Source: Sideroxydans sp.
GTDB lineage: Bacteria; Pseudomonadota; Gammaproteobacteria; Burkholderiales; Gallionellaceae
Length of the DNA: 64,000 nt
NCBI GenBank assembly: GCA_024636935.1
Contig: JAGXGC010000017.1
Location: 1 to 64,000 of the forward strand
Direction of reading: 5' to 3'
The notes beneath the pieces are model-generated. The model made no database searches. It had not been told where the DNA came from and saw only the letters and a program-made list of their open reading frames with translations. The translations under genes and the position numbers were made by a program. Below are positions 8,334 through 51,350 of the stretch, piece by piece (the stretch's first letter is position 1; every line of letters begins with the position of its first letter).

Positions 8334-9233
8334 TTACTTCTTGTTCTTCTTCTCAATCATCTCGTGCATGATCGGCGAGAGGATGATCTCCATCGCGTGG
8401 CTCATCTTGCCGCCGGGCACCACCATGGTGTTGGCACGGGACATGAATGAGTTGGGGATCATGGACAGGTAGTAAGGGAAGTCCACGCCTTTCGGATTGC
8501 GGAAACGGATGACCACGAAGCTTTCGTCCGGAGTCGGGATGTCGCGCGCGATGAAAGGATTGGATGTATCCACGGTCGCCACACGCTGGAAGTTGATGTC
8601 AGTGTGTGTGAACTGCGGGGTGATGTATTTGATGTAGTCCGGCATGCGACGCATGATGGTGTCCACAGTCGCTTCTGCTGAATAGCCGCGCTCAGCCTTG
8701 TCGCGATGGATCTTCTGGATCCACTCGAGGTTGACCACTGGCACCACGCCGATGCCGAGGTCGACATACTTACCAGCGTCGACGCCCTTGGCTTCATCTT
8801 TGGCCAGACCGTGCAGACCTTCGTAGAACAACAGGTCGGAACCAGCGTCGATGTCTTCCCAAGGTGTAAACACACCAGGAGTCAGATCGGTCAGACCGAA
8901 GTGCTTGTTGTGCTCAACGGCCTCTGGCTCGCTGTGCACGTAGTAGCGACGTTTGCACATGCCGGTATCGCCGTATTGCTTGAACATCTCTTCGATCTTC
9001 TCGAAGTGGTTAGCTTCGGGGCCGAAATGACTGAAGCTGTGGTTGCCTGCCTTGGTCGCTTCGGCTGCCGCTGCGCGGAAGGCCATGCGATCCAGACTGT
9101 GCAGGCTGTCGCCTTCGATCACGGCGGCGCTGATCTTTTCTCTGCGGAAAATGTTCTCAAACGCGCGCTTGACTGTGGTTGTGCCTGCGCCGGACGAACC
9201 GGTTACGGCGATTACGGGGTGCTTGACGGACAT
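8334..9233 (-). CDS. prk: Phosphoribulokinase, class I
   Basis: A 299-residue proteobacterial-type phosphoribulokinase. It has the P-loop GSSGAGTTT (residues 12-20) in MSVKHPVIAVTGSSGAG, then the ribulose-5-phosphate region (EGDSLHSLDR, FSHFGPEANH), then LFYEGLHGL and the C-terminal VVPGGKMSHAMEIILSPIM. It uses ATP to make ribulose-1,5-bisphosphate, the CO2 acceptor of Rubisco, so its presence is direct evidence of a Calvin cycle. No Rubisco gene is in this window. It is monocistronic by context: a strong terminator follows and leuS is divergent across 147 bp. The start has a ribosome site (GGAGAGA) upstream. Confidence 0.96.
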   Translation of the reverse strand: MSVKHPVIAVTGSSGAGTTTVKRAFENIFRREKISAAVIEGDSLHSLDRMAFRAAAAEATKAGNHSFSHFGPEANHFEKIEEMFKQYGDTGMCKRRYYVHSEPEAVEHNKHFGLTDLTPGVFTPWEDIDAGSDLLFYEGLHGLAKDEAKGVDAGKYVDLGIGVVPVVNLEWIQKIHRDKAERGYSAEATVDTIMRRMPDYIKYITPQFTHTDINFQRVATVDTSNPFIARDIPTPDESFVVIRFRNPKGVDFPYYLSMIPNSFMSRANTMVVPGGKMSHAMEIILSPIMHEMIEKKNKK

Positions 9234-13806: not shown

Positions 13807-15588
13807 ATGATACGTCGTCTGTTTTTGATCGCTCTGCTATGCATTGCACCACTGGCGCAAGCCGATCTGCTCTCGTTCGGTAGCAAACCCAAGTTCCTGC
13901 CGCCCGATCAGGCATTTTCACTGGAGGTGCGCGCACTCGATCAGCGCACCTTGATTGCCAGCTTCAACATCACACCCGGTTATTACCTGTATCGCGACAA
14001 AACCACTTTCAGCCTGGGTGAAGGTCCTGCCAAGATCGCGCAAGTGTCACTGCCGGAAGGTGAGACCAAGAACGACCCAAACTTCGGTGTGATGAAAGTG
14101 TTCCATAACAGCTTTCAGGCCGAGATCGCACTGGAAGGTGTCGATCCCAAGTTGCCCTTGGTGCTTAATGCCAGCTATCAAGGATGCAGTGATGACGGCT
14201 TATGTTACCCGCCGATAGAAAAGACGCTCACCCTTGATCTGGTGACCACTGCCAGTAGCCCCTCCCCTACCATTGCTCCAGCAACCGAGGATGAGAACTC
14301 TCAGATCGCCCGCCTGTTCAAGGATGGAAACTTCTGGTTGATCGTCGTCAGCTTCTTCGGTTTTGGTCTGCTGCTCTCACTTACGCCCTGCGTGTTCCCG
14401 ATGATCCCCATCCTGTCTGGCATCATCGTCGGCCGTGGACACAAGATCACCCACACCCACGCCTTCCTGCTGTCGTTGGCTTATGTGCTGGGCATGGCCA
14501 TCACCTATGCGGCGGCAGGCGTGGCGGCAGGCTATTCCGGCGAATTGATCTCTAATGCACTACAAACCCCTTGGGCGCTGGGTGGCTTCGCGGCCATCTT
14601 CGTCGTGCTGTCGCTGTCCATGTTCGGCCTGTATGAATTACAGTTGCCTGCTGCGCTGCAAAGCAAACTGACTGACACCAGCAACAAGCTGCATGGCGGC
14701 CACCTCACCGGCGTATTCGCCATGGGCGCCTTGTCCGCCATCATCATGGGACCGTGCGTTGCCGCGCCGCTGGCGGGTGCCTTGCTATATATCAGTCAGA
14801 CGCATGACGCCGTGTTGGGTGGTAGCGCCTTATTCACGATGGGGCTGGGTATGGGCGTGCCGTTACTGATCATCGGTACTTCCGCAGGCACCTTGCTACC
14901 CAAAGCTGGGCCGTGGATGGAATCGGTGAAGCGCTTCTTCGGTGTATTGATGCTGGCGCTGGCAATCTGGATCGTCGCGCCGGTCATCCCAGTCGCTGCA
15001 CAGATGCTGGCTTGGACTGCACTGCTAATCTTCTGCGCTATCCATCTGCATGCACTAGACCCGCTGCCGACCAATGCGCGTGGGCTTAAGAAACTGGGCA
15101 AGGCGCTAGGCATCATTGCCTTGCTGCTGGGTGTTGCCTATCTGATCGGCGCACTGTCTGGAGCACGCGACATCCTACGTCCGCTGGGCACGCTGCAAAC
15201 CAGCCCAGGTATGGCTGCGCCCGCTGAGATCCATCGTTTCGAGCGTGTAAAGGGACTGGCCGCGCTGGAAGCTCGTATCGCACAAGCAAAAGGCAAAGTG
15301 GTGATGTTGGACTTCTATGCTGATTGGTGCATCTCATGCAAGGAGATGGAGCGCTTCACCTTCAGTGACCCAGCCATCCAGTCACGCATGAATAAGGCCG
15401 TGCTGTTGCAAGCTGATGTAACCGCCAACGATGCAGATGATAAAGCCCTGCTACAGCACTTCCAATTATTCGGCCCGCCGGCCATCCTGTTCTTTGACAA
15501 ACAAGGGCGCGAGCAAGGCGATCTTCGGGTGATTGGTTATCAGAATGCACAACAATTCGGCAGCTCGCTCTCCCGAGCAGGCCTATAA
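13807..15588 (+). CDS. dsbD: Thiol:disulfide interchange protein DsbD
   Basis: This 593-residue inner-membrane protein has all three DsbD parts: an N-terminal signal peptide ([19 protein letters not shown]) and periplasmic alpha domain with the Cys pair in [13 protein letters not shown]; a central eight-helix membrane domain with the functional cysteines in [10 protein letters not shown] and [11 protein letters not shown]; and a C-terminal thioredoxin-like gamma domain with [14 protein letters not shown]. It carries electrons from cytoplasmic thioredoxin to periplasmic disulfide isomerases and cytochrome c maturation. The latter matters for an organism relying on c-type cytochromes such as the Cyc2-like protein in this window. 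Confidence 0.95.
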
Positions 15589-22590: not shown

Positions 22591-22780
22591 GACACCCTCC
22601 GCAAATGATTAACAGGACACATTCAACCCATACCGTCATGGATAAGGAGCTCATGAAGCAATGACCTGATTGACCATTGGTGCATGGATGGCATGGATCA
22701 TCATGCAGTCATTCTACGCTTGTCGATGCAAGGCCAATAGTCACCCCAAAACCAATTATTTTATTCAGAAAACTGGCCAG
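22591..22780 (-). promoter_or_regulatory. Upstream region of ppdK
   Basis: About 190 bp without a gene lie between the ppdK start and the terminator of the Cyc2-like gene. It holds the ppdK ribosome site and must contain the ppdK promoter, since the upstream terminator isolates it. A short tandem GCATGGAT repeat (22682-22689 and 22691-22698), with a related TCATGGAT at 22637, could be a regulator site. I see no convincing -35/-10 pair. Confidence 0.35.
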
Positions 22781-22783
22781 CAT

Positions 22784-22813
22784 AAAAAAGGGGAGACCGA
22801 AGTCTCCCCTTTT
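22784..22813 (-). terminator. Intrinsic terminator of the Cyc2-like gene
   Basis: A perfect 12-bp stem (22786-22797 with 22802-22813; arm AAAAGGGGAGAC) closes, on the minus strand, around a UUCG tetraloop in the extra-stable C(UUCG)G context, and runs into TTTTTT. It lies about 65 bp after the stop codon of the Cyc2-like gene, so that gene ends its transcript here. The A-tract on the other side could let it work in both directions. Confidence 0.92.
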
Positions 22814-22876
22814 AATTGGTGCTTGTGCTTTGTTTAAGGGGCTGGCGAACCAGCCACCTCTTACGTCAGCTCAAAC

Positions 22877-24136
22877 TTACCATGCGGACTCAAGCATCAG
22901 AGTCAGCAGGCTCGTTCCTGTCTTACCTGCGGCATTTTTATCAAGTGAAGCACCCGCATCGTAGGCAGTACCAGAGTTCTGTGTGTATGCAGCGTGCAAT
23001 GCCACGTTCTGGAACAGGTCATAGATGGCAGAAACTGTGATTGCATTATCAGTCTCGGCAGCACCATTTTTGGCGTTACGATATGCAGCGCCAATCGACA
23101 AGGCGTGAGGGATCACAGTAAAGTCAGCGCCCAGAGTCCACGCCTTTTTGGCATTGGTGGTGGAGTCGTTGTAGGCGTTAGGCAGGGCTGCTGTACCAGC
23201 TGGGATATTCACGTATGTACCATACAAGCCCGCTTCCATGCCTGCGATTTCGCCGTGAGCCTGTGCGTTCATAGCAGTAGCTTTAGTTGCAACTTTGGTT
23301 GTTGCAGCTGCTTCGTAGTTTTCTCCGCTAATCATATCCACACCAGCTACAACTGCCATGTCGGCAATCGTTGGTGTCACGTTCAAGCTGACTGTAGTTG
23401 AGGCCAACTGACGACCTGCCGACCCGCCCATCAGGAACGCCGGTGCGAAACGAGACACGTTGATATAGCCCATGTCGGTTTTCGCAACGAAGGCAATACC
23501 CGTCGCATCAGCCTTTGCCAATTGTGACCAGATATATGCTGAGATGCCCTCACCAGCCTCAGACCAACGCATCGCGCTGTTCACACCATTGCTAGACTCT
23601 GTATAACCAGAGATCGGGCCTTGACCTGTAGCGAAGACGATTGCGGAAAGCTTAGCAGAGTCCATGTCGTAAACGACTGGAAGACGCAAGCCTGCGACTT
23701 TGTTTCCTGTCCAGTCGTATTCGATCAGAGTGCCAATTTTGACTGCATCGCTTTCAGCGATGCGGCCAGCAACGAAAAGAGAGAATTCGTCAGGGATCTG
23801 CCACTGACCGCCATTCTTAGTAGTGCCGCTAATCGCAGCGTTTGCTGCAGTGTCAACACCATTTGTCTTCTGGTAACGGGCCTTGATCAAAATGGCTTGA
23901 TTGAGGGTGGAAGGTATTGACAGGTGCTCGCCTTCAACCTTTTCTTGAGCCCCCATCATGGTGTAACCGCCGGCCTTGAATGCGCGACCGAAACCGTTCA
24001 GAACTGGAAAGTGCTGTGCGTGGCAAGCAGAGCAAGCCATGCCAGTTTGACGCGCGAACGCGGGAATAGCGGATGCTTCTGGAGCGAAGGCTGCTGCAGC
24101 CAGAACGCCAGCCAGAGAGAGAGCGATTTTCTTCAT
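22877..24136 (-). CDS. cyc2: Cyc2-like fused cytochrome c-porin, candidate outer-membrane Fe(II) oxidase
   Basis: The 419-residue product has a signal peptide (MKKIALSLAGVLAAAAFAPE, cleavage near ASA-IP at 23/24), one c-type heme motif CSACH at residues 35-39 inside PAFARQTGMACSACHAQHFP, then LNGFGRAFKAGGYTMMG and about 360 residues of alternating polar/aromatic beta-strand pattern ending in an aromatic residue (ESAW), as in outer-membrane barrels. FARQTGxxCxxCH plus a porin-sized barrel is the established signature of Cyc2 of neutrophilic and acidophilic iron oxidizers. Cyc2 is thought to take electrons from Fe(II) at the cell surface. A strong ribosome site (GAGGAGAAAC) precedes the ATG. 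It has its own terminator. A two-component system lies just upstream on the same strand. I see no other cytochrome gene in the window. Confidence 0.85.
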   Translation of the reverse strand: MKKIALSLAGVLAAAAFAPEASAIPAFARQTGMACSACHAQHFPVLNGFGRAFKAGGYTMMGAQEKVEGEHLSIPSTLNQAILIKARYQKTNGVDTAANAAISGTTKNGGQWQIPDEFSLFVAGRIAESDAVKIGTLIEYDWTGNKVAGLRLPVVYDMDSAKLSAIVFATGQGPISGYTESSNGVNSAMRWSEAGEGISAYIWSQLAKADATGIAFVAKTDMGYINVSRFAPAFLMGGSAGRQLASTTVSLNVTPTIADMAVVAGVDMISGENYEAAATTKVATKATAMNAQAHGEIAGMEAGLYGTYVNIPAGTAALPNAYNDSTTNAKKAWTLGADFTVIPHALSIGAAYRNAKNGAAETDNAITVSAIYDLFQNVALHAAYTQNSGTAYDAGASLDKNAAGKTGTSLLTLMLESAW

Positions 24137-24302
24137 TTATGTTTCTCCTCGTTGATTTGGATATTTACTCTTTAAGATGGGCGAAAGGCTTCCGCCTTGC
24201 AACCACGGCGAGAATCCTAACAACGGGTTCGTGAGCAAATCGTCAACGAAAAGTGAAGGATTTGTTAAATGTGATTTTTTTACAACAAGTGCTGTGAGTA
24301 TT
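24137..24302 (-). promoter_or_regulatory. Upstream region of the Cyc2-like gene
   Basis: 166 bp separate the histidine-kinase stop and the Cyc2-like start. The distal part is AT-rich and holds an imperfect inverted repeat (TTGTTAAA at 24262-24269 facing TTTACAACAA at 24279-24288). A TTGACG hexamer (minus strand, 24246-24241) is a possible -35, but the spacing to the nearest TAGGAT is too long (about 21 bp). The near-start AACGAGGAGAAACATAA carries the ribosome site. The gap is long enough for independent control of this gene. Confidence 0.4.
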
Positions 24303-25577
24303 TCAGAATGAAGTGCTGCGAAAATCGAGTGTGACAGTAGTGCCTTCGCCGGGATGGCTGTCGATCTGTACCTGCCATCCATAACGATCAGAGATACGCC
24401 TGACCAAGGACAGGCCGACGCCAAAACCTGCACTGGCCCTACCTTTGTAATGACGGTCAAAGGCCCTCGCCAATTCTTCCGGCGTCATACCCGTACCGGT
24501 ATCACTGACCTCGATCCGGCCTTCTTCCAGCTTCAGTCTGATATGCCCCTGAGTCGTATGGAAGGCGGCGTTTCGCAGCAGATTGTCCACCGCGATATAG
24601 ATCAACGAACGCTCAACGACCAGCGCTGGTGCAGCCTGCACTGACAGTTCCAGCACAACGGCAGAATCCCGCAGCAAAGCGCGATGTCTGTCCACTGCCT
24701 CCTGTACTACTGGTGCGATTTGGCACAGCGGCTCATCGTCACCCACAGTTCGTTCGCGGGCCATCAACAGCAAGGAGCGCATCATCTCCACCATCTCCAG
24801 TCCGGAACGCTTGATGCGTGCCAGCCGCTCGCGCTGCTTGTCGTTCAGCCTCTCATCCTGCTCAAGAACTTCGACAGCGCCCAAAATCACCGCCAGCGGT
24901 GTTCGCAACTCATGGCTGACATCGCCGGCGAAGTTCTTCTCGCGCTCGATGAAATCGTCCAAACGTTGTACATAACGCTCGAAGGCACGTGCCAGTTCGC
25001 CCACTTCATCGTTACGTATCAATTTGGCTGGTGGCATATGTTTAACGCCCGGCTCGGCGTCTCCCACCCAATTCGCTAGGCGAGTGACTGGCGAGACGAT
25101 GCGCCGCGCAAGCAAGAACCCACCGATCGCCGAACCTAGGATCACGAAAACCGAGAACAAGATTAGCTCGCCCATGAAAAACTCTTCACGTGCACGCTGA
25201 CGCTCTGCGTTATAGATCATAAAATAGCGTGCTTCGCTACGATCAGCGACCAGCACGTGATATTTGGAGCCCTCTATATCGACGCTATGCCATCCCGGTT
25301 GCAGATGATGCAACTGATTGGGAACGATCTCCTCCGGCTCCCCTGGCGACAGCACATAGCCTCTGAAGGCGATCGTGTTCGGCGGCACGAACACCTGATC
25401 GCGCTCATGGCGCGCCACGGTATCATCCAATTCGGCTTGCAACGTCTCTTGCATCAATTTGCTGCCGGCATCCTTGACCGTCCAATACAGGACGCCCGAC
25501 AGGACTACGCTGATCAATGCACCAAACAGCGCGAAGGCAACCGCCGCCTGAAAACGTAAGCTATTCTTGTGCAGCAT
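24303..25577 (-). CDS. Two-component sensor histidine kinase
   Basis: From the ATG at 25577 the 424-residue protein has a first membrane helix (FQAAVAFALFGALISVVLSG), a periplasmic domain of roughly 100 residues, a second helix (LILFSVFVILGSAIGGFLLA), a HAMP-like linker, the HisKA dimerisation box FAGDVSHELRTPLAVI with the phospho-accepting His, and a HATPase domain with NLLRNAAFH (N box), VSDTGTGM (G1) and GFGVGLSLVRRI (G2). The periplasmic part shows no family I recognise. A longer reading to 25706 lies inside the regulator gene. It overlaps the regulator by 17 bp. Signal unknown. Confidence 0.9.
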   Translation of the reverse strand: MLHKNSLRFQAAVAFALFGALISVVLSGVLYWTVKDAGSKLMQETLQAELDDTVARHERDQVFVPPNTIAFRGYVLSPGEPEEIVPNQLHHLQPGWHSVDIEGSKYHVLVADRSEARYFMIYNAERQRAREEFFMGELILFSVFVILGSAIGGFLLARRIVSPVTRLANWVGDAEPGVKHMPPAKLIRNDEVGELARAFERYVQRLDDFIEREKNFAGDVSHELRTPLAVILGAVEVLEQDERLNDKQRERLARIKRSGLEMVEMMRSLLLMARERTVGDDEPLCQIAPVVQEAVDRHRALLRDSAVVLELSVQAAPALVVERSLIYIAVDNLLRNAAFHTTQGHIRLKLEEGRIEVSDTGTGMTPEELARAFDRHYKGRASAGFGVGLSLVRRISDRYGWQVQIDSHPGEGTTVTLDFRSTSF

Positions 25578-26253
25578 CCTGTCCTGCCAGTTGATAGCCG
25601 AATCCACGCAAAGTACGTAGCAGTTTGCGCTCGAACGGCTTGTCCACCAGTTCGCGCAACATGTACATATGCGCCCGCAGCGAATCGCTGTCCGGTCGAC
25701 CTTCACCCCACACGGCCCGCTCTATGTCATCGCGACTGACTACTTGGGGCGAACGCGACATCAGCACCTCTAGGATCTTATACGGGATAGGCGGAAGCTC
25801 GATGAGCTTGCCACCGCGCCGCACGGAATAGATTTGTGTGTCCAGCATGAGGTCTTCCACCGTCAAAACCTTCTGCCGTTGCGTGCGCTCGCCTACCCGA
25901 CGTGTCAGCACACGTAACCGCATCTCGATCTCACGCAGCTCGGCAGGCTTCACCAAGTAATCATCAGCTCCCGCTTCCAGCCCGCTGATCTTGTCCTCCA
26001 GCGCATCCCGCGCCGTCACCATCAGAATTGGCGTTTCCTTACCCGCATCCTCGCGCAGCCTGCGGCACAGGGTCAGGCCGTCCATGCCAGGCAGGGTGAG
26101 ATCGAGCACGATAGCATCGTATACATTGACCACCGCCAAATGGAGACCGGTCACGCCATCCCCCGCTGCATCCACGATATGACCCTTGGATTCGAGGAAA
26201 TCGAACATATCGGACGCAAGGTCCCGGTTGTCTTCGATGATCAGTACATGCAT
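25561..26253 (-). CDS. OmpR/PhoP-family response regulator
   Basis: This 230-residue protein has a receiver domain (MHVLIIEDNRDLASDMFDFL with acidic pocket; phospho-acceptor Asp in AIVLDLTLPGMDGL; LMVTARDA; conserved Lys in DDYLVKPAEL) and a C-terminal winged-helix DNA-binding domain (RAHMYMLRELVDKPFERKLL, then TLRGFGYQL). The ATG at 26253 follows an AGGGCGGACGAACC leader. An apparent extension to 26433 crosses the glycine riboswitch on the opposite strand and is not real. It is co-transcribed with the kinase; the Cyc2-like gene next in line is an obvious target candidate, though this is only inferred from position. Confidence 0.92.
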   Translation of the reverse strand: MHVLIIEDNRDLASDMFDFLESKGHIVDAAGDGVTGLHLAVVNVYDAIVLDLTLPGMDGLTLCRRLREDAGKETPILMVTARDALEDKISGLEAGADDYLVKPAELREIEMRLRVLTRRVGERTQRQKVLTVEDLMLDTQIYSVRRGGKLIELPPIPYKILEVLMSRSPQVVSRDDIERAVWGEGRPDSDSLRAHMYMLRELVDKPFERKLLRTLRGFGYQLAGQDAAQE

Positions 26254-40817: not shown

Positions 40818-42086
40818 ATGTCCACCACCGTACTTGTCATCGGCTTGATGGTGTTCTTTGCGCACTTTCTGTCGCTGCAATTCAGCCGCACCAACATTCC
40901 AGACGTCCTCGTCTTGATGATGATCGGCATATTGCTCGGCCCTTTGATGGGAATAGTGTCGCCTGACGACTTCGGCAAAGTCGGTTCTTTGTTGGCCACT
41001 ATCGCGCTGGTTGTGATCCTGTTCGAGAGCGGGACCTCGCTCAACCTCGATGTGCTGGGACATTCCATCGGCACGACCGGTTTTCTGTCTATCGCTTGCT
41101 TCGCGCTCACCACAACAGTGATCTCGGCGGTCGGCATGTCTATGCTGGATCTGAATTTCACTTCTGCGCTACTTCTTGGGTTGACGCTTGGCGGCACCTC
41201 TTCCGCCGTTGTGATTCCGATGGTGAGTGCACTGAAACTGTCCGATAAGCCTTCCACTGTGCTGGTACTCGAATCCGCACTGACCGATGTGCTGTGTATC
41301 GTGGGCGTGTTTGCAATGCTACAGATCCTGACGCAAGGTGACGTGGCTGCCGGAAAGGTCGTAGGCGGCGTCATGGCAGCCTTGGTGTTCGCAGCCGTGT
41401 TCGGCGTGGTGGGTGGCATCGGCTGGTTGCTGGTGCTAGGCAAGGTGCGCGACTTCCCCAACACTATCTCGTCCACACTGGCCTATGTATTCATCGTCTA
41501 CGGTGCGACCGAAGTGTTGGGCTTCTCCGGCGCCATCGCCGCACTGGCACTGGGCGTCACGCTAACCAATTTCCAAAAATTCGGGCTGCATCGCATCCCA
41601 CATCTAGACAAGAACATCGAACCGTTGAACGAGGTCGATCTGATCTTCTATCGTGAAGCAGTGTTTCTGCTGAAGACCTACTTCTTTGTGTATCTTGGCA
41701 TCTCCATCCATTTCGGTGCCGTACTGCCGGCCACAGTCGCGATCGTGATGGTGCTGATCGTCTATGTGTTGCGTCTGCTGCTGACACGCGTGGTGTTCCG
41801 CGACCCCACCTATACGCTACGCGACACTGCTGTCACCTCCATGATGGCGCCTAAAGGACTGGCGGCGGCGGTACTCGCCGCGCTGCCATTGCAATACGGT
41901 ATCGCAGGCGGCGAATTGATACGCGACACGACTTACATGGTTGTGCTATTCAGTATCTCGCTTACCGCTGTGCTCGTGATGGCCTACCCAGCTCCCGCAG
42001 TACGCTCTTTCTACTCACGTGCGCTAGGCAAACCACCCGGCGACACCATGAAAGTTCCGGCCTTCGTCCCGCCAACCAAATCCTGA
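40818..42086 (+). CDS. Cation:proton antiporter (CPA superfamily)
   Basis: This 422-residue protein has about 12 membrane helices. The family is visible in NIPDVLVLMMIGILLGPLMG, ALVVILFESGTSLNL, LLGLTLGGTSSAVVIPMVSA and LESALTDVLCIVG, where the ion-binding Thr/Asp pair lies. It exchanges Na+ or K+ for H+ across the inner membrane. There is no C-terminal TrkA/RCK regulatory domain, unlike KefB/C. It is followed 74 bp later by a second, different antiporter gene. Confidence 0.87.
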   Translation: MSTTVLVIGLMVFFAHFLSLQFSRTNIPDVLVLMMIGILLGPLMGIVSPDDFGKVGSLLATIALVVILFESGTSLNLDVLGHSIGTTGFLSIACFALTTTVISAVGMSMLDLNFTSALLLGLTLGGTSSAVVIPMVSALKLSDKPSTVLVLESALTDVLCIVGVFAMLQILTQGDVAAGKVVGGVMAALVFAAVFGVVGGIGWLLVLGKVRDFPNTISSTLAYVFIVYGATEVLGFSGAIAALALGVTLTNFQKFGLHRIPHLDKNIEPLNEVDLIFYREAVFLLKTYFFVYLGISIHFGAVLPATVAIVMVLIVYVLRLLLTRVVFRDPTYTLRDTAVTSMMAPKGLAAAVLAALPLQYGIAGGELIRDTTYMVVLFSISLTAVLVMAYPAPAVRSFYSRALGKPPGDTMKVPAFVPPTKS

Positions 42087-42160
42087 GCCGGTATCGATCA
42101 AAACCAGAACGGCATCAACCACACGTACGATGCCTTGAATCAATTTGATAGGAAGCATGC

Positions 42161-43543
42161 ATGATTACGACACTGTTGATGATAGCCACCATTCTTTTCC
42201 TCGCGCTGCAACTGGAGGAGAAACTGCGCGTGCCATCGCCATTGGGCTTGATCCTGCTTTCCTTCATCGCACACTATGCATTCAAACAAGTACCGGTACT
42301 CACCGGCGACGCCGAACATTTCGCCACCCTAGTCATCTTCCTGCTTCCGGTGTTGCTGATCTCCGATTCACTTGAACTCAAGGTCGCGGATCTAAAGGAG
42401 CATGCATGGAGCCTGCTCCATCTGGCGGTGGTTTCCATCATCTTGTCGGTGTTGACCGCGCTGGCCATTTCGGACTGGCTGTTCGGTGAATATCAATTAT
42501 CTGCAGCAGCAGTGATCGTGTTGTTCGCCATGGTGCTGGCGACCGATCCAGTATCTGTGGTGAGCATCTTCTCCAAATTCGAGTTACCGCACCGCCTGAA
42601 GATCCTAGCCGAGGGCGAAAGCCTACTGAACGATGCCACAGCGCTGATCGCTTTCGTTTTTGTCGGCCTTTATGCGCTGGGCGGCAACGAGATCACAACG
42701 GGCTATGTGCTGGGCATCAGTGCGGAAGTGATCCTAGGCTCGGTCGCGGTTGGCATGATGGTCGGCTTCCTCGGTCTGATGCTGATGAAATCCACACATA
42801 ACCGCTTCGCCGAGATGATGGTGCTGATCATCGCCGGGTACGGCGCATTCGAGATCGCCGAACATTTCTACGTGTTCCTCAATCTTTTGGGGGGCCATTC
42901 TCACCTGCATCTGTCCGGCATCCTTGCTGTAATCTTCGCTGTGATCACGGTCAATCACGTGATGATGCAGGCGGTAGAAAAAGAAGAGCAGCGCATCCAC
43001 GAAGACGAAGCAGCCTTGCACTCGATGAATCAAAGTACGCCCGCCGGCTTGTTGGGCAAGACGCTAGGCCGACTACGTGCCACCCTTGCCGAACGAGATC
43101 GCCATCTGCGCACCAAGGAAGACATCCAGTTGCTAGCACTGGTCGCCAACACCATCCTGTTCATCGCCATGGCGGAGATGATTGATCTCAAACTATTGTG
43201 GCAGTACAAGACCGAGATCCTAGTGATGTTCCTCGCCACGACGGTGATACGCGGCGTGATGATGGGTTTGTTCGCTGCCGTTGCCAACCGCACAGAGAAG
43301 ATGGTCGACATCAGCCTGCGCTGGTGGAGTGTGTTGACCTTCGCCGGCATCAAGGGCGGCTTGTCCATCGTGATGATCACCATGATCCCCGCCGACTTCC
43401 CACATTTGGAGATGTTCAAGGCAGTGGTCATCGGCGTTATCATGTTGTCCACCTTCCTCTATTCCGGCGCGTTGCTACTCATCATCGGGCGTAACAAGGA
43501 GATATTCCGCAGCGAGAAACTAGCTGAGGAAGCACACCACTGA
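42161..43543 (+). CDS. Na+/H+ antiporter, NhaP/CPA1 type
   Basis: This 460-residue antiporter shows the CPA1 motifs VLFAMVLATDPVSVVSIF (TDP motif) and ILAEGESLLNDATALIAFV (ND motif with the transport Asp). An acidic/charged cytoplasmic loop (KEEQRIHEDEAALHSM) lies near residues 268-290. It ends KLAEEAHH. It would export Na+ in exchange for H+. It precedes an MscS-type channel gene by 17 bp and may share a transcript with it. Confidence 0.9.
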   Translation: MITTLLMIATILFLALQLEEKLRVPSPLGLILLSFIAHYAFKQVPVLTGDAEHFATLVIFLLPVLLISDSLELKVADLKEHAWSLLHLAVVSIILSVLTALAISDWLFGEYQLSAAAVIVLFAMVLATDPVSVVSIFSKFELPHRLKILAEGESLLNDATALIAFVFVGLYALGGNEITTGYVLGISAEVILGSVAVGMMVGFLGLMLMKSTHNRFAEMMVLIIAGYGAFEIAEHFYVFLNLLGGHSHLHLSGILAVIFAVITVNHVMMQAVEKEEQRIHEDEAALHSMNQSTPAGLLGKTLGRLRATLAERDRHLRTKEDIQLLALVANTILFIAMAEMIDLKLLWQYKTEILVMFLATTVIRGVMMGLFAAVANRTEKMVDISLRWWSVLTFAGIKGGLSIVMITMIPADFPHLEMFKAVVIGVIMLSTFLYSGALLLIIGRNKEIFRSEKLAEEAHH

Positions 43544-43560
43544 CATTCGGCACAACGACT

Positions 43561-44457
43561 ATGATCGAGACCTTCCATAATCTGACTGCGCATCCGATGT
43601 TCGGCAAGTTGCTGGGCTTGATGCTGAGCCTGCTCTTCATCCTGTTGTTGGTGCGCTTCGCACAGATGCTCGCCACCAACAACATCCTGAACAAGGACCT
43701 GCGCTACAAGACACGCAAAGCTCTCAGTCTGGCCGGCTACGTGTTGGGCTTGTTGGCCGCGATCGCCATCTTCAGCAACCAACTCTCCAATCTGCCGGTA
43801 CTTATCGGTCTGCTCGGCGTCGGTATCGGCTTCGCACTACGCGAACTGATCCAGAGTCTGTTCGGCTGGCTGGTGGTCACCTTCGGCAATCTGTACAAAC
43901 CGGGCGACCGCATCAAGCTGGGCGGGATCATGGGCGACGTGATGGATGTCGGCCCGCTCACCACCACCCTCATGGAGTGTGGCGACTGGGTGAAATCCGA
44001 TCTCTACAACGGCCGTGTGGTGTATCTACCCAACAACATCGTGTTGCGCGAACAGGTACAGAACTACAGCGTGGACTTCCCCTTCCTTTGGGATGAGATC
44101 GTGGTGCCTGTGCGCACCGATTGCGACCATCGTCTCGCGCGCAGCATCCTGTTCGATGTCACCAAACGAGAGCAGGCAAGCACCATGGCTGATGCGCAAC
44201 AATATTGGTCGAACTTCATGCTGCACCACCGTGCCGAGGACGCGCGCCTGGATGTGGTGGTGACCATGAGCTTCGACGCCAATTGGATCGAATTCACCAC
44301 GCGCTATCTAGTGGACTACAGCCGCCGCCGCACGACCAAGGACAAGCTGTTCTCGGCCATTCTGGATGCATTCGAAAAGACTGAGGGCAAAGTAAAGATC
44401 GCCGCCCCATCTGTGCAAGTGACCGAGTTCCCCTCGGCAATCGGGCCGCAGGCATAA
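43561..44457 (+). CDS. MscS-family mechanosensitive ion channel (second copy)
   Basis: A 298-residue MscS-like protein with helices at about residues 15-40 and 58-80 and the pore helix in PVLIGLLGVGIGFALRELIQ, followed by SLFGWLVVTFGNLYKPGDRI and the beta domain with YLPNNIVLREQVQNYS. It is not a close copy of the channel at 39.8 kb (different TM3 and loop), so it is a paralogue from another subfamily. It likely serves osmotic release. It ends 150 bp before the SulP gene. Confidence 0.87.
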   Translation: MIETFHNLTAHPMFGKLLGLMLSLLFILLLVRFAQMLATNNILNKDLRYKTRKALSLAGYVLGLLAAIAIFSNQLSNLPVLIGLLGVGIGFALRELIQSLFGWLVVTFGNLYKPGDRIKLGGIMGDVMDVGPLTTTLMECGDWVKSDLYNGRVVYLPNNIVLREQVQNYSVDFPFLWDEIVVPVRTDCDHRLARSILFDVTKREQASTMADAQQYWSNFMLHHRAEDARLDVVVTMSFDANWIEFTTRYLVDYSRRRTTKDKLFSAILDAFEKTEGKVKIAAPSVQVTEFPSAIGPQA

Positions 44458-44459
44458 GG

Positions 44460-44465
44460 TATAAT
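44460..44465 (+). promoter_or_regulatory. Candidate -10 box ahead of the SulP gene
   Basis: TATAAT begins 2 bp after the MscS gene stop in the context AAGGTATAATCCG, leaving a leader of about 135 nt before the SulP start. There is no clear -35. The rest of the 44458-44608 gap holds no gene. Confidence 0.4.
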
Positions 44466-44608
44466 CCGCCACACGATTCAATCAGCTTGGCAGTCTTTTA
44501 TGCAACTCGCTTTGCATATGCCGGCCGCATGACAATCACCACATTCATTTCCGAGTAAATATCTTTCCCGTCCAGTTGATGGACGGCGCGATCTTTTGGA
44601 GCAGCACA

Positions 44609-46117
44609 ATGAACATCAAAAATTTCAACGAAGGCAAGACCAACATATTGAGTGGGCTTACCGTCGCCCTCGCACTGGTACCGGAAGCCATCGCCTTCGC
44701 CTTCGTCGCGCAAGTACATCCATTGGTCGGCCTGTATGCCGCCTTCATGGTAAGCCTTATCACATCACTATTCGGTGGTCGTCCAGGCATGATATCTGGC
44801 GCTGCAGGATCACTAGCGGTAGTAATGGTGGCCTTGGTGGTTCAGCACGGCGTGGAATACTTGTTCGCCACCGTGGTGCTGATGGGCGTGCTGCAGATCG
44901 GCTTCGGCCTCGCCAAACTGGGCAAGTTCATTCGCATGGTCCCGCATCCGGTGATGCTGGGCTTCGTCAACGGCCGCGCCATCGTGATCTTTCTGGCGCA
45001 GATGGGGCACTTCAAAACGCCTGAAGGCGAATGGATGCAAGGTACCGCGCTGTACACCATGCTCGGCCTGATCGCGCTGACCATGCTCATCATCTACCTG
45101 CTGCCCAAGCTGACGAATGCCATTCCCTCCACGCTGGCCGCTATCGTCGCCACTTCCGCACTGGTGATCTTCGTCGGTATCGACACCAAGACCGTGGGCG
45201 ACATGGCTTCCATCGCCGGCGGTCTACCGACTTTCCATCTGCCCGAGGTGCCGCTGAACTGGGAGACATTTAAGATCATCCTCCCCTACAGCGTGATCCT
45301 CGCCGCCATCGGCCTGATTGAATCGCTGCTGACACTGAACCTGATCGACACCATGACCGACACACGCGGCAAGCCCAATCGCGCCTCCATAGGTCAGGGC
45401 GTGGCCAATGTAGTCACCGGCTTCTTCGGTGGCATGGGCGGTTGCGCCATGATCGGTCAGAGCATGATCAACGTGACCAACGGTGCGGTGAAGAATCTTT
45501 CCGGTATCGCCGCCGCCCTGTTCCTGCTGTTCTTCATCCTTTTCGCCTCAAGCTGGATCGAAATGATCCCACTCGCCGCACTGATCGGACTGATGTTCGT
45601 GGTGTCGGAGAAGACCTTCGAATGGGGCAGTTTCAACCTGTTCGGCAAAGTGCCCAAGACCGACATCGTGGTCGGCCTCACCGTCGCCGTGGTGACCGTG
45701 CTGACCGACCTCGCCATCGCGGTGATCGTCGGCATCATCATCTCCGCACTGGCTTTCGCTTGGGAGCATGCCAAGAGTATGGAAGTGCACGTGACCACCG
45801 AGGAACACGGCTGGAAGGTCTACGATCTGCACGGTTCGCTGTTCTTCGCCTCGTCACAGAGTTTTCTCAACCTGTTCACCCCGAAGGAAGATCCGCAGGA
45901 GGTGGTGATCGATTTCAAACATGCGCGCGTGAAAGATCATTCCGGACTGGAGGCCATCGACCAGTTGGCCGAACGCTATACCCAGCTCGGCAAAAAACTG
46001 CACCTGCGCCATTTGAGTCCGGACTGTCTGGAACTGCTCGACAAGGCGCGCGGCATGGTCGAAGTGAATGTGCTGGAAGACCCGCATTACCATCCGGCTG
46101 ATAACCGCCTCGGCTGA
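44609..46117 (+). CDS. SulP-family anion transporter (BicA-like) with STAS domain
   Basis: The 502-residue protein from the ATG at 44609 (GGAG seven bases upstream) has 10-14 membrane helices, with LSGLTVALALVPEAIAFAFV (TM1), GRPGMISGAAGSLAVVMVAL (TM3 substrate loop) and FFGGMGGCAMIGQSMINVTN (TM8 region). A cytoplasmic C-terminal STAS domain (VYDLHGSLFFASSQSF, VIDFKHARVKDHSGLEAID) follows. The GGMGGCAMIGQSMINV stretch is typical of the subfamily that includes Na+/bicarbonate symporters such as cyanobacterial BicA; sulfate transport is the alternative. The gene precedes the Mrp operon, which could maintain the Na+ gradient. Confidence 0.87.
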   Translation: MNIKNFNEGKTNILSGLTVALALVPEAIAFAFVAQVHPLVGLYAAFMVSLITSLFGGRPGMISGAAGSLAVVMVALVVQHGVEYLFATVVLMGVLQIGFGLAKLGKFIRMVPHPVMLGFVNGRAIVIFLAQMGHFKTPEGEWMQGTALYTMLGLIALTMLIIYLLPKLTNAIPSTLAAIVATSALVIFVGIDTKTVGDMASIAGGLPTFHLPEVPLNWETFKIILPYSVILAAIGLIESLLTLNLIDTMTDTRGKPNRASIGQGVANVVTGFFGGMGGCAMIGQSMINVTNGAVKNLSGIAAALFLLFFILFASSWIEMIPLAALIGLMFVVSEKTFEWGSFNLFGKVPKTDIVVGLTVAVVTVLTDLAIAVIVGIIISALAFAWEHAKSMEVHVTTEEHGWKVYDLHGSLFFASSQSFLNLFTPKEDPQEVVIDFKHARVKDHSGLEAIDQLAERYTQLGKKLHLRHLSPDCLELLDKARGMVEVNVLEDPHYHPADNRLG

Positions 46118-46214
46118 CAAGATGGTAACGATTGCATCGTCTTTTCGCTGCCCATATCACAACCGCCGTCTCGATTCCACGCACACGTTTTGCCAGCTTG
46201 GATAACATAGTCAT

Positions 46215-49010
46215 ATGGACCCGACTTTTTCCCTGATTGCGATCCTCGTCATTGCCCTCACTGCCAGTCCCCTCCCGCTGCTGATGCAGCGTTTTGGGCG
46301 TGGTCATGCTGCACTGGCCACGGTTCTGGTGATGTCGGCCTGTCTGGCACTGTTGCTTCCGCTGGTGCCTGCCGTGATGAATGGCACGACCTTGCTAGCG
46401 AGTTTCTCCTGGCTTCCTGACTGGGGACTGGCGCTGTCCTTCCGCCTCGATGGTCTGGGCTTGATGTTCTCGTTACTGATCCTTGGCATCGGTCTGCTAG
46501 TCACGCTGTATGCCTATTACTATCTCGACGGCCATGACCACCTCGGTCGCTTCTACACCCTGCTGCTGCTGTTCATGTCCTCCATGCTGGGCGTGGTGCT
46601 GTCGGAGAACCTGCTGCTGCTGGTGGTGTTCTGGGAACTGACCAGCCTGTCGTCTTTCCTGCTCATCTCCTACAAGCGCGAGAGTTATGAATCGCGCCTC
46701 GCCGCGCGCATCGCACTGGCGGTCACCGGCGGCGGTGGATTAGCGCTGTTCGCCGGGGTGTTGCTGCTCGGTCATATCGTCGGCAGTTTCGAACTGACGC
46801 AGGTGCTGGCGGCGGGCGAACAGATCCGCGCCCACGCGCTTTACGAGATCATGCTGATCCTAGTGCTGCTCGGCGTGTTCACCAAGTCAGCCCAGTTCCC
46901 CTTCCATTTCTGGTTGCCGCAGGCGATGGCCGCGCCTACCCCGGTGTCTGCCTATCTGCATTCAGCCACCATGGTGAAGGCGGGGGTGTTCCTGCTGGCA
47001 CGCCTGTATCCGGCGCTGGCCGGTAGCGATCTGTGGTTCTGGCTGGTCAGCGGCACCGGTGCGTTGACCCTGCTGTATGCCGCCTACCTTGCTTTCTACC
47101 GCTACGACTTCAAGGGCCTGCTCGCTTATTCCACCATCAGCCACCTCGGCCTGATCACGCTGCTGTTCGGCTTGGATACCCCGTTGTCGGTGGTGGCGGG
47201 CGTGTTCCACATCATCAATCATGCGATCTTCAAGGCGTCGCTGTTCATGGCAGCCGGCATCGTCGACCATGAGTGCGGCACGCGCGATATGCGCCGCGTC
47301 AACGGCCTGTTCAAGTTCATGCCGATCACCGCCACGCTGGCCATCGTCGCCGCCGGCTCCATGGCGGGTGTGCCGCTGCTCAACGGCTTCCTGAGCAAAG
47401 AGATGTTCTTCGCCGAAACGGTCGGCCATCCGGTGTTCGACGAGATGAGCTGGCTGCTACCCGCCTTCGCCACGCTGGCCGGCATCCTCGCCGTGGCCTA
47501 CTCATCGCGCTTCATCCACGACGTGTTCTTCAATGGCGACCCCGTCAATCTGCCGCGCAAACCGCACGAGCCGCCGCGCTGGATGCGGGCGCCGGTCGAG
47601 GTGCTGGTGGCGATGTGTCTGCTAGTTGGCATCTTCCCGCAATGGAGCATCGCACCCATCCTCAATGTCGCTGCCGGAGCGGTGTTGCAGCAACCACTGC
47701 CCGCATTCCATCTGGCCATCTGGCACGGCTTCAACGCACCGTTCATGATGAGTCTGCTCGCGCTGGCGGGCGGCATCGGTTTATATGTCATGCGCAAACC
47801 GCTGTATGCGTTCTATGACCGACTGCCGACCATCCATGCCAGCATCGTGTTCGAGCGCGCCTATGAGAATCTGGTGACCTTCGCACGCACGCTGCTTGCC
47901 GGGCTGGACAACGGTTCGCTGCAACGCTACCTCGCACTGTTCTTCGCTTTCGTGCTGGCACTGGGCGGCTGGGCGTGGTGGTCTGCCCCATCAGCCGCAC
48001 CAGCTGTGGTAACGCAAACCGCCGATGCTGCCAGCTTGGTCGCACTCGGCATGCTGATGCTGGCCGCTTTCGGCGTGGTGTCGCAGCATCGCAAGCGTCT
48101 CACCGCCATCGTGTTCACCAGTGTGATCGGCCTGATCGTGGCGCTGATCTTCGTGCGTTTCTCCGCACCCGACCTTGCGCTCACGCAACTGGTGGTCGAA
48201 GTGGTCAGCATCGTGCTGTTGCTGCTGGCGCTGTATTACCTGCCGCCTACCTCACCCGCCGAAGAGGATTTGCCGCGCATCGTTCGCGATGCATTGCTGG
48301 CCCTTACCGCCGGTGTCGGACTGGGTGCGGCCAGTTACGTCCTGCTGACTACGCCGTTCGAAACGATCTCTGGCTTCTATCTTGCGCAGGCCGTGCCGGG
48401 TGGTGGCGGCAGCAATGTGGTGAACGTGATCCTGGTGGACTTCCGTGGTTTCGACACGCTGGGCGAGATCACCGTGCTGGCGATGGTGGGACTGGCGGCG
48501 CACGCGCTACTCGACCAGCTGATCCTCAAGGCGCCGACGCATGACAGTGAAGGTCGTCACTGGGCGCGCGAGCGCCACCCGCTGTTCCTTGAGATGCTGA
48601 TGCGTCCACTGCTACCGCTAGCGCTGATGGTGTCGATCTACATCTTTTTACGCGGACATAATTTGCCGGGCGGCGGCTTCGTCGCCGGACTGGTGACCGG
48701 CGTGGCGCTGATCCTGCAATATCTCGCCAGCGGCATCGGCTTCGCCAGCGCGCGCCTGCCACAACGCTTGCCCTTGTTCCTCGCGGCCGGACTCGCTTGT
48801 GCGGGTGGCATCGGTGCGGCGAGCTCGTTACTCGGTTTTCCTTTCCTCACCACCGCACACGGCCACCTCACGCTGCCTTTGCTCGGCGACATCGAACTGG
48901 CCTCCGCCCTGATCTTCGATCTCGGCGTGTATCTGGTAGTGGTCAGTGTGGTACTGATGGTGCTGGCTGACCTTGGCAAGCTGTCTGTGCATGAAGGAGT
49001 GAAAAGCTGA
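46215..49010 (+). CDS. mnhA: Mrp/Mnh Na+/H+ antiporter subunit A, fused to subunit B
   Basis: This 931-residue protein is related to NuoL. It has the NADH-quinone oxidoreductase-like antiporter core (VVFWELTSLSSFLLISYKRE, FWLPQAMAAPTPVSAYLHSA, TMVKAGVFLLARLYP, FKGLLAYSTISHLGL, HIINHAIFKASLFM). The C-terminal third carries the MrpB-like domain (VNVILVDFRGFDTLGEITVL, then RPLLPLALMVSIYIFLRGHN and GGGFVAGLVTGVALI). It forms part of a large membrane complex that exports Na+ in exchange for protons. The separate MnhB gene is absent because it is fused here, as in many Gram-negative operons. The next gene starts with a one-base overlap. Confidence 0.94.
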   Translation: MDPTFSLIAILVIALTASPLPLLMQRFGRGHAALATVLVMSACLALLLPLVPAVMNGTTLLASFSWLPDWGLALSFRLDGLGLMFSLLILGIGLLVTLYAYYYLDGHDHLGRFYTLLLLFMSSMLGVVLSENLLLLVVFWELTSLSSFLLISYKRESYESRLAARIALAVTGGGGLALFAGVLLLGHIVGSFELTQVLAAGEQIRAHALYEIMLILVLLGVFTKSAQFPFHFWLPQAMAAPTPVSAYLHSATMVKAGVFLLARLYPALAGSDLWFWLVSGTGALTLLYAAYLAFYRYDFKGLLAYSTISHLGLITLLFGLDTPLSVVAGVFHIINHAIFKASLFMAAGIVDHECGTRDMRRVNGLFKFMPITATLAIVAAGSMAGVPLLNGFLSKEMFFAETVGHPVFDEMSWLLPAFATLAGILAVAYSSRFIHDVFFNGDPVNLPRKPHEPPRWMRAPVEVLVAMCLLVGIFPQWSIAPILNVAAGAVLQQPLPAFHLAIWHGFNAPFMMSLLALAGGIGLYVMRKPLYAFYDRLPTIHASIVFERAYENLVTFARTLLAGLDNGSLQRYLALFFAFVLALGGWAWWSAPSAAPAVVTQTADAASLVALGMLMLAAFGVVSQHRKRLTAIVFTSVIGLIVALIFVRFSAPDLALTQLVVEVVSIVLLLLALYYLPPTSPAEEDLPRIVRDALLALTAGVGLGAASYVLLTTPFETISGFYLAQAVPGGGGSNVVNVILVDFRGFDTLGEITVLAMVGLAAHALLDQLILKAPTHDSEGRHWARERHPLFLEMLMRPLLPLALMVSIYIFLRGHNLPGGGFVAGLVTGVALILQYLASGIGFASARLPQRLPLFLAAGLACAGGIGAASSLLGFPFLTTAHGHLTLPLLGDIELASALIFDLGVYLVVVSVVLMVLADLGKLSVHEGVKS

Positions 49011-49336
49011 TGGAAGCCTTACTCGCCATTGCCATCGGCCTGCTCACCGCCTGTGGCGTCTTTCTGATGCTGCGTCCGCGCACCTTCTCGCTGGTGCTGG
49101 GACTGACTTTACTGTCCTACGCGGTAAACCTGTTCCTGTTCGCCGGCGGTCGCTTGAAAATGGATGCCCCGCCGTTGATCCGTGATGGTGCGAATTACAC
49201 CGACCCGTTGCCGCAGGCGCTGGTGCTGACCGCCATCGTCATCGGCTTCGGCATGACCGCCTATCTGGTGATGCTGGCGCTGCGCGCACTGGCGGAATCC
49301 GGCGACGACAACGTGGATGCGAAGGAAAAATCTTGA
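49010..49336 (+). CDS. mnhC: Mrp/Mnh antiporter subunit C
   Basis: A 108-residue NuoK-like protein with three membrane helices. FLMLRPRTFSLVLGLTLLSY and the conserved NLFLFAGGRLKMDAPPLI, with DPLPQALVLTAIVIGFGMTA, are the MrpC signature. The start overlaps mnhA by one base, and it overlaps the mnhD start by four. Confidence 0.95.
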   Translation: MEALLAIAIGLLTACGVFLMLRPRTFSLVLGLTLLSYAVNLFLFAGGRLKMDAPPLIRDGANYTDPLPQALVLTAIVIGFGMTAYLVMLALRALAESGDDNVDAKEKS

Positions 49337-50862: not shown

Positions 50863-51350
50863 TGCGTCGCCTGCTGCCACGTCCCGCTTTGTCGATCAGT
50901 CTGTTCCTGCTGTGGGCAGCGCTGAGCAATGCCGCTTCCTTCGCCAGCCTGCTGTTGGGCGCGCTGCTGGCGCTGCTATTGCCGTTCATCGTATCGCCGT
51001 TCTGGCCGGATGCGCTGCACATCCAACGCCCCGCGCTTGCGCTGCGATTCGCCGCGCGCATCGGCTGGGACATCCTGCTCGCCAACTGGGCGGTTGCTCG
51101 ACGCGTGGTGGGGCCGGTGGCGGCATTGCATCCAGCCTTCATCGAAGTGCCGCTGGACCTGCGCGACCCGTTCGCCGCCACGGTGCTGGGCAGCGTCGTG
51201 TCGCTGACCCCGGGCACGGTGTCCATCGATGTGGACCGCGAACGTTGGGTATTGCAAGTCCACGCACTCGACGCACCCGATCCGCAGGCACTGATACGCG
51301 AGATCAAGCAACGCTATGAAACGCCCATACGGGAGATATTCGCATGCTGA
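50859..51350 (+). CDS. mnhE: Mrp/Mnh antiporter subunit E
   Basis: A 163-residue subunit with two or three N-terminal membrane helices and a soluble C-terminal domain, DPFAATVLGSVVSLTPGTVS, followed by VDRERWVLQVHALD, which is the MrpE hallmark. It is coupled to mnhD by an ATGA overlap and overlaps mnhF by 7 bases. Confidence 0.94.
   Translation: MMRRLLPRPALSISLFLLWAALSNAASFASLLLGALLALLLPFIVSPFWPDALHIQRPALALRFAARIGWDILLANWAVARRVVGPVAALHPAFIEVPLDLRDPFAATVLGSVVSLTPGTVSIDVDRERWVLQVHALDAPDPQALIREIKQRYETPIREIFAC

Follow-up and report, generated by a model that had tools for sequence, protein, structure and literature searches.

A conserved two-component system and a putative four-pentamer operator precede cyc2 in iron-oxidizing Gallionellaceae

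Which signal controls cyc2, the gene of the outer-membrane cytochrome-porin Cyc2, in neutrophilic iron oxidizers is a question without an answer in the literature that we examined. It is raised by a locus of Sideroxydans sp. (Gallionellaceae) located in a stretch of 64,000 nucleotides (positions 1 to 64,000 of contig JAGXGC010000017.1, assembly GCA_024636935.1), which we refer to as the window. A preliminary description presented the gene as standing alone. This is misleading, as a two-component system is encoded ahead of cyc2 on the same strand; neither this system, nor a second cyc2 copy, nor soxB, both present in the same genome, were mentioned there. Judged by its sequence, the gene encodes a Cyc2 of the type found across the iron-oxidizing Gallionellaceae. 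We propose, with a probability of roughly 0.7, that the protein is such a Cyc2 and that the kinase and regulator act through an array of four pentamers to activate cyc2. The linkage of the pair to cyc2 is conserved, as is the array with its near-fixed spacing, and the array is associated with the regulator. The Cyc2 itself is an ordinary Gallionellaceae gene of an already known protein kind and holds no surprise; it is the conserved regulator and operator that deserve attention. The locus comprises the following elements.

22877–24136, minus strand: cyc2, fused monoheme cytochrome-porin of 419 residues, Cyc2 clade A of Gallionellaceae
24214–24219, minus strand: −10-like TAGGAT, 11 bp past the last pentamer (spacing scan)
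24231–24268, minus strand: putative operator TTAAC-N6-TTCAC-N6-TTGAC-N6-CTCAC, four pentamers in an 11-bp register (pattern scan)
24303–25577, minus strand: sensor histidine kinase with two long predicted helices taken as transmembrane, a periplasmic domain, HAMP, HisKA and HATPase_c; start (MLHKNS) placed by inspection
25561–26253, minus strand: OmpR-type response regulator (receiver and Trans_reg_C), overlapping the kinase start by 17 bp

On the cyc2 strand, the response regulator is followed by the kinase and then by cyc2. The two proteins have the domain composition of an OmpR-type two-component system, with a receiver and Trans_reg_C in the regulator and HAMP, HisKA and HATPase_c in the kinase, all above the Pfam cut-offs. 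The pair precedes cyc2 in many related loci despite their differing wider surroundings. We searched 120 genomes of the family, 90 of which contain a cyc2 match when fragments are counted, for the kinase; at most 14 candidates were scored per genome, and incomplete genomes may have lost theirs. The scores are stepwise, with 25 orthologs at 398 bits or more, nine relatives at 330–369 bits, one protein at 217 bits, and the rest below 98 bits. For 24 of the 25 orthologs, a cyc2 lies downstream in the same orientation, and the gap measures 169–2530 bp (median 233.5 bp, stop codon included). None of the nine next-closest kinases, which form a separate subgroup with 41–45% identity, shares a contig with a cyc2. 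Kinase genomes belong mostly to one genus (21 of 25), and the linkage to cyc2 occurs in four genera. Two frames of c-type cytochromes (231 and 234 residues, recognized by CXXCH) lie between the kinase and cyc2 in one locus (L116, from G005) and possibly encode periplasmic partners.

The region between the kinase and cyc2 contains a conserved block of four YTNAC pentamers in an 11-bp register, with the sequence TAGNAT 11 bp further on. In the window, the array is unique within the 64 kb at up to one mismatch (chance expectation 0.01). No second array was found at this threshold, so none precedes the regulator, and autoregulation through the array is not supported. The promoter set covered 110 cyc2 genes from 86 genomes, each with at most 300 bp of upstream sequence, and at least three of the four pentamers were counted as an array; upstream sequences were not taken for the cyc2 matches of G024, G009, G041, and G100, and a few second copies and fragments were left out. 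Arrays precede 30 of the 43 cyc2 genes in kinase genomes and none of the 67 in kinase-less genomes. Within the kinase genomes, they are present before 22 of the 24 directly linked cyc2 genes and before 8 of the 19 others. Counted by genome, the comparison is 23 of 25 with the kinase versus 0 of 61 without it, and within the genus g1 it is 21 of 21 versus 0 of 7. Among 9,000 simulated upstream sequences, exactly three pentamers occurred in 0.03% and four in none. The fetched loci and the window, 1.23 Mb altogether and all chosen for cyc2, contain 17 four-pentamer arrays, 16 of which are positioned just before a cyc2. The orphan array (L073:12232) has a TAGTAT and no clear gene after it, and is perhaps a remnant of a second cyc2 promoter. 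TAGNAT follows all 30 promoter arrays, at 11 bp in 28 of them and at 19 bp in two. The two longer spacings, with the element 8 bp further away, belong to the third cyc2 copies of Sideroxydans lithotrophicus ES-1 and of G004 (L118 and L120), both in clade A.

Promoters with and without the array also differ in their other elements. The best sigma-70 score averages 9.0 of 12 in the cyc2 promoters of kinase-less genomes and 5.8 in array promoters; it is 8.4 in the array-less copies of kinase genomes. A dyad, TGTTGCA-N4-TGCAACA, is present with up to two mismatches in 27 of the 67 kinase-less promoters and 10 of the 13 array-less promoters of kinase genomes, and in none of the 30 array promoters. 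It is mostly positioned about 120–150 bp before the start codon, for example in G001:C60, G014:C15, and the second copy of the Sideroxydans sp. studied here (L144). The array-less copies of kinase genomes thus look, in sequence, like kinase-less promoters. Since the second copy lacks the array, in this organism the switch would control one cyc2, and an ordinary promoter would drive the other.

Several points weigh against this proposal or against Fe(II) as the signal; control of cyc2 by the pair is, in the source organism, deduced from sequence. The kinase of G016 is on a 7-kb contig, on which the 1.9 kb from the kinase to the contig end contain no cyc2. The linked cyc2 genes of G042 and G088 keep only pentamers 3 and 4, plus TAGNAT. 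Thirteen of the 43 cyc2 genes in kinase genomes, including the second copy of the source organism, have no array. The pentamer was derived from some of the promoters that were later counted, and Fisher values overstate the association because the genomes are related; the comparison within the genus and the absence of arrays from all 67 other promoters are the safer parts of the array evidence. Downstream of the nine relative kinases, a Pfam-confirmed sulfate-permease-family gene follows in four cases (L133, L134, L135, and L138), and three-pentamer YTNAC repeats follow in seven (counted without a shuffle control). Finally, cyc2_1 of ES-1 is highly expressed even on thiosulfate, and Fe(II) triggers cyc2_2 and cyc2_3 (PMC8788666). 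As cyc2_1 has the array, these data do not fit simple switching on and off by Fe(II); the switch may be always partly on, tuned by the strength of the array, or answering a wider state.

It could be argued that the kinase and regulator are neighbors of cyc2 by shared ancestry of the locus only, without controlling it, and that the repeats belong to the promoters of the family in general. This would agree with the concentration of 21 of the 25 kinase genomes in one genus, and no experiment speaks to control. However, the linkage of kinase and cyc2 extends over four genera, and the 67 kinase-less promoters, all without arrays, have the better sigma-70 consensus instead (9.0 versus 5.8 of 12). 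G016 keeps the array before its cyc2 although the kinase is on another contig. A further argument comes from a genomic site shared by the window and L031, L032, L036, L084, and L088, which is delimited by gcvT and, at its other end, by a DUF3426-type gene (genes named by Pfam). PPDK is located between cyc2 and the DUF3426-type gene in two of these loci, the window and L084. The cyc2 at this site belongs to clade A of the Cyc2 tree in the window, L031, and L036. That of L032, absent from the tree because of its variant motif, shares 83% identity with that of L031 and was counted as clade A. In L084 and L088, the same pair is followed by clade B genes with 37% and 39% identity to that of the window. 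The sequences thus indicate that the pair was retained at the site while cyc2 changed, and we consider it unlikely that shared ancestry is the whole explanation.

A stronger competitor accepts that the two-component system controls cyc2 and holds that its signal is not Fe(II) but, for example, pH, redox state, or inorganic carbon. We give this possibility somewhat less than even odds. The sulfate-permease-family genes and repeats behind relative kinases that are not linked to cyc2 mean that the signal need not be iron, and the expression of ES-1 cyc2_1 on thiosulfate as well is in line with this (PMC8788666). These permease-family genes possibly serve anion or bicarbonate uptake; behind other relative kinases lies a DUF599 gene (in L136) or an OmpA-family gene (in L139). 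Near the beginning of its periplasmic part, the kinase contains an Exx[E/D] motif in 21 of the 25 orthologs (ExxE in 11, ExxD in 10; the others have ExxK in three and QxxD in one), and the motif is common, as ExxD, to seven of the nine unlinked relatives. The counterweight is indirect: the relatives form a subgroup of their own, whose signal may differ. In the AlphaFold2 model of the sensor part (pTM 0.53), two long helices are accompanied by four strands. Foldseek returned no match to it under E = 0.001, the best being a WalK model and ligand-binding domains of chemoreceptors, and a sequence search of the PDB gave one match (E 0.52). As to the signal itself, we guess at Fe(II) or at the state of redox or inorganic carbon. 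More specifically, and only tentatively, neutrophilic iron oxidizers of the Sideroxydans group could have a dedicated switch for their electron donor, in which a pair resembling BqsRS of Pseudomonas aeruginosa reads Fe(II) or the status of its oxidation in the periplasm and turns cyc2 on via the four-pentamer operator, with kinase-less relatives using a constitutive promoter. The idea that the switch accompanies facultative sulfur oxidation was not supported, as soxB shows no clear difference in frequency: in a hand count it is above the cut-off in 14 of the 25 kinase genomes (a fifteenth has a fragment) and in 28 of the 65 other cyc2 genomes (a twenty-ninth has a fragment).

Positions 22877–24136 (minus strand) form one open frame of 419 codons with an ATG start, and the features of the encoded protein are listed below.

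24068–24136, minus strand: signal peptide, residues 1–23, cleavage after ASA (by inspection; similar in relatives)
24044–24070, minus strand: Cyc2-defining motif AXPXFAR[Q/K][T/Y], here AIPAFARQT (from sequence; definition in PMC8406198)
24020–24034, minus strand: heme c attachment site CSACH (from sequence)
23999–24007, minus strand: PXL motif, here PVL, four residues past CXXCH (from sequence)
22880–23902, minus strand: β-barrel domain of 16 predicted strands (residues 79–418) with an aromatic C-terminus (AlphaFold2; Foldseek to porins; Porin_4 below threshold)

The N-terminal stretch reads MKKIALSLAGVLAAAAFAPEASA-IPAFARQTGMACSACHAQHFPVLNGFGRAFKAGGYT and resembles a signal peptide by inspection, as it does in relatives. 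The only CXXCH, CSACH, lies inside AIPAFARQTGMACSACHAQHFPVL, and the protein has two cysteines in total, in agreement with the preliminary description of a single CSACH after a signal peptide. Keffer et al. (2021) define Cyc2 by AXPXFAR[Q/K][T/Y] ahead of CXXCH and PXL four residues after it, with a length screen of 365 residues and a fused 16-strand porin (PMC8406198). The window protein reads AIPAFARQT-GMA-CSACH-AQHF-PVL, has a single heme site, and at 419 residues exceeds the length screen; its signal peptide is assigned by inspection only. The motif is present in 88 of 90 homologs, which were themselves chosen by a near-identical motif. It is not universal, as 10 of 79 loci from a scan of named genomes (L032, L051, L054, L060, L073, L074, L077, L104, L105, and L107) carry variants, e.g. 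FSRQT, YARQT/V, FARQV, or FARQQ, and a strict screen with the published motif would lose these relatives.

Profiles built from the Cyc2 proteins of iron oxidizers match the window protein with 488.9 bits (seven rows), 480.8 bits (three named rows), and 329.2 bits (four clade B rows only). All rows are from Gallionellaceae, without Mariprofundus or Acidithiobacillus, and the identities of the four ES-1 and ES-2 rows among the seven are inferred. A profile comparison of the kind that had been proposed for this protein is significant with these rows, and the assignment as Cyc2 stands. The barrel part of the protein alone reaches 151–299 bits. Four distant homologs of the same order reach 39–76 bits, and neither the 232 other stop-to-stop frames of the window nor 20 shuffles gave a match. 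Pfam returned Porin_4 below threshold on residues 253–389 and a chance-level match to cytochrome c'; NCBIfam returned no match, and neither database gave a Cyc2 model. A sequence search of solved structures had a best E of 0.26, which we take as chance. A porin other than Cyc2 was rejected on the basis of the motif and profile scores. The frame is not a chance one, because its nearest relatives align with it end to end at 58–63% identity.

The AlphaFold2 model from 11 sequences (mean pLDDT 65.9, pTM 0.68) has 16 strands of at least eight residues between residues 79 and 418, and the chain ends in the aromatic sequence LMLESAW. Its closest solved structure in Foldseek is OmpT of Vibrio cholerae (E 1.6e-11); BpsOmp38, DcaP, and OmpF are also among the matches, and the TM-scores are about 0.4–0.65. 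The model thus supports the outer-membrane barrel with an aromatic C-terminus that had been suggested before. Residues 1–74, which include the heme site, are below pLDDT 50, and the support does not extend to the location of the heme in the mouth of the barrel.

The named-genome scan reaches close relatives only, because both of its patterns came from the signal-peptide region. Sixty-seven of its 79 loci are titled Gallionella, Sideroxydans, Sideroxyarcus, Ferrigenium, Ferriphaselus, Gallionellaceae, Gallionellales, or Nitrosomonadales, 11 have broader proteobacterial titles, and one (L075), which encodes a typical Cyc2, comes from a contig labeled Candidatus Moranbacteria that was probably misbinned. 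A tree of 90 proteins, from which the 10 loci with variant motifs were omitted, has two sides. Clade A (support 98/97) contains the window gene, the second copy of its own genome, ES-1 copy 3, and both Ferrigenium cultures. Opposite it are ES-1 copies 1 and 2, ES-2, and Ferriphaselus R-1, and the fork joining all of this side is weak (85/31). G085 was taken as ES-1, as the gaps between its three cyc2 genes, 604 and 437 bp, are those stated in PMC8788666; G112 was taken as ES-2. The window Cyc2 is nested among those of Gallionellaceae, apart from the four same-order homologs, in this tree without PV-1, Acidithiobacillus, and Leptospirillum. Its identity with ES-1 copy 3 is 46%, against 39% for the other two ES-1 copies and for ES-2. 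The second copy in its own genome is on another contig and is 58% identical to it.

By analogy with characterized Cyc2 proteins, we infer that the window protein oxidizes iron. A Cyc2 homolog that is no iron oxidase here, serving instead another donor or acting as an Fe(II) sensor or import pore, appears improbable to us. Such a role would be compatible with the presence of soxB in the genome, with the 39% identity to ES-1 copies 1 and 2 and ES-2, and with a possible additional role of Cyc2 in sensing Fe(II), which the authors of PMC12442390 suggest. It is opposed by the intact Cyc2 motif and by the membership in clade A of ES-1 copy 3 (Slit_0265, Cyc2_3), one of the Fe(II)-triggered copies. 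The sole cyc2 match of Candidatus Ferrigenium straubiae (G094; L035), the Fe(II) oxidizer of culture KS, is in clade A as well, with the caveat that Cyc2 and/or MtoAB are allowed in these cultures (PMC12622760).

The wider genome bears on the electron donor. Two further features of the window are listed here.

8334–9233, minus strand: phosphoribulokinase (PF00485, E=4e-65)
22792–22809, minus strand: terminator-like stem-loop with a T tail, 3' of cyc2 (weak; scan of 22600–24400)

The genome (2.70 Mb in 36 contigs, 94.94% complete) carries RuBisCO, the cbb3 oxidase gene ccoN, and soxB. Together with the phosphoribulokinase, which the preliminary description had correctly noted, this makes lithoautotrophy of the source organism well supported. 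Growth on Fe(II), which that description suggested, holds in a weaker form: as the genome has soxB, Fe(II) need not be the sole donor, and electrons could come from Fe(II), from reduced sulfur, or from both. The model TIGR03508 of a decaheme family had no match in the genome; control genomes gave none above the cut-off either, so that this negative may not extend to MtoA. The claim that no other cytochrome gene is in view holds as far as we looked. Among the remaining stop-to-stop frames of the window with 80 or more codons, two contain CXXCH and are taken here as chance frames, and a DsbD-type protein (PF02683) is encoded at 13807–15588. The terminator ascribed to cyc2 is present as a stem with a T tail, and is weak evidence because the scan gave two such sites versus 1.7 expected. 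Elsewhere in the window, positions 40818–51350 contain two Na+/H+ exchanger genes, followed by a SulP-type transporter and by Mrp-antiporter-like subunits.

We hypothesize the following sequence of events. Dissolved Fe2+ would enter the outer-membrane barrel from outside and, by analogy with characterized Cyc2, pass an electron to the single heme in the plug domain. Periplasmic cytochromes would carry the electron downhill to the cbb3 oxidase and to reverse transport for CO2 fixation. The sensor kinase would phosphorylate the response regulator, and from the sequence patterns we infer that the phosphorylated regulator binds the four-pentamer array (YTNAC, 11-bp register) and, with this array standing in for a strong −35 box, activates cyc2 in a manner similar to that of PhoB- or BqsR-type activators. 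With a conserved regulator, a conserved operator, and a promoter class for each copy, the control of cyc2 becomes directly testable. From the promoter class one can predict which cyc2 copies of a genome are under regulation and which are transcribed from a consensus promoter. If the tentative BqsRS-like reading is true, the operator would mark the donor-regulated copies among the multiple cyc2 genes of any genome.

We searched the literature on Cyc2 together with a regulator, kinase, or promoter in Gallionellaceae, and none of the papers listed treats the system in these bacteria by its title or opening lines; supplements (figure S3 of PMC8788666) were outside this search. The passages searched of PMC12442390, PMC10734462, PMC12016527, and PMC5513912 do not mention such a system in connection with cyc2. 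Known systems resemble parts of the locus. Cyc2 proteins of cluster 1, from Mariprofundus PV-1, Sideroxydans, and Gallionella, share with the window protein the signal peptide, the arrangement AXPXFAR[Q/K][T/Y]-CXXCH-PXL, the fused 16-strand barrel, and a length above 365 residues. The window protein falls with ES-1 copy 3 and the two Ferrigenium cultures, apart from ES-1 copies 1 and 2, ES-2, and Ferriphaselus R-1.

The closest counterpart of the locus is that of S. lithotrophicus ES-1 (Slit_0263–0265), which has the same order of response regulator, histidine kinase, and cyc2, and an array before all three copies. The three ES-1 genes are described as "preceded by transcriptional regulators" (PMC8788666). 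In contrast, the window site has one cyc2, and the second copy of its genome is elsewhere, with a different promoter.

Two-component control related to iron is known from other bacteria. RegBA of Acidithiobacillus ferrooxidans, titled a global redox-responding system, is reported to regulate genes of Fe(II) oxidation (PMC5506826). The likeness to the system proposed here would lie in the two-component control of Fe(II)-oxidation genes. RegA is not known to be an OmpR-type regulator.

The putative operator resembles that of BqsRS (CarRS). BqsR of P. aeruginosa responds to Fe(II) and binds TTAAG-N6-TTAAG; in a promoter with four pentamers, pentamers 3 and 4 are critical, the fourth also serves RNA polymerase, and the first two add strength (PMC4682146). 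The arrays before cyc2 likewise have pentamers 6 bp apart and four per promoter, and pentamers 3 and 4 are the ones that survive in G042 and G088. BqsS binds Fe2+ via Glu48 of the sequence E45xxE48 in its periplasmic domain, and its stimulation is Fe2+-specific (PMC12666569); the Exx[E/D] near the periplasmic start of 21 of the 25 kinases resembles this sequence. Solved relatives of the window regulator include the CarR receiver (E=6.5e-21), which ranks behind BasR/PmrA and others. However, the pentamer here is YTNAC and not TTAAG, at the same spacing. We do not assign the pair to BqsRS because the pentamer differs and because seven of the nine relatives without cyc2 share the glutamate motif. 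The kinase is likened to BqsS through this motif, and the target of the pair here would be an oxidase of the electron donor.

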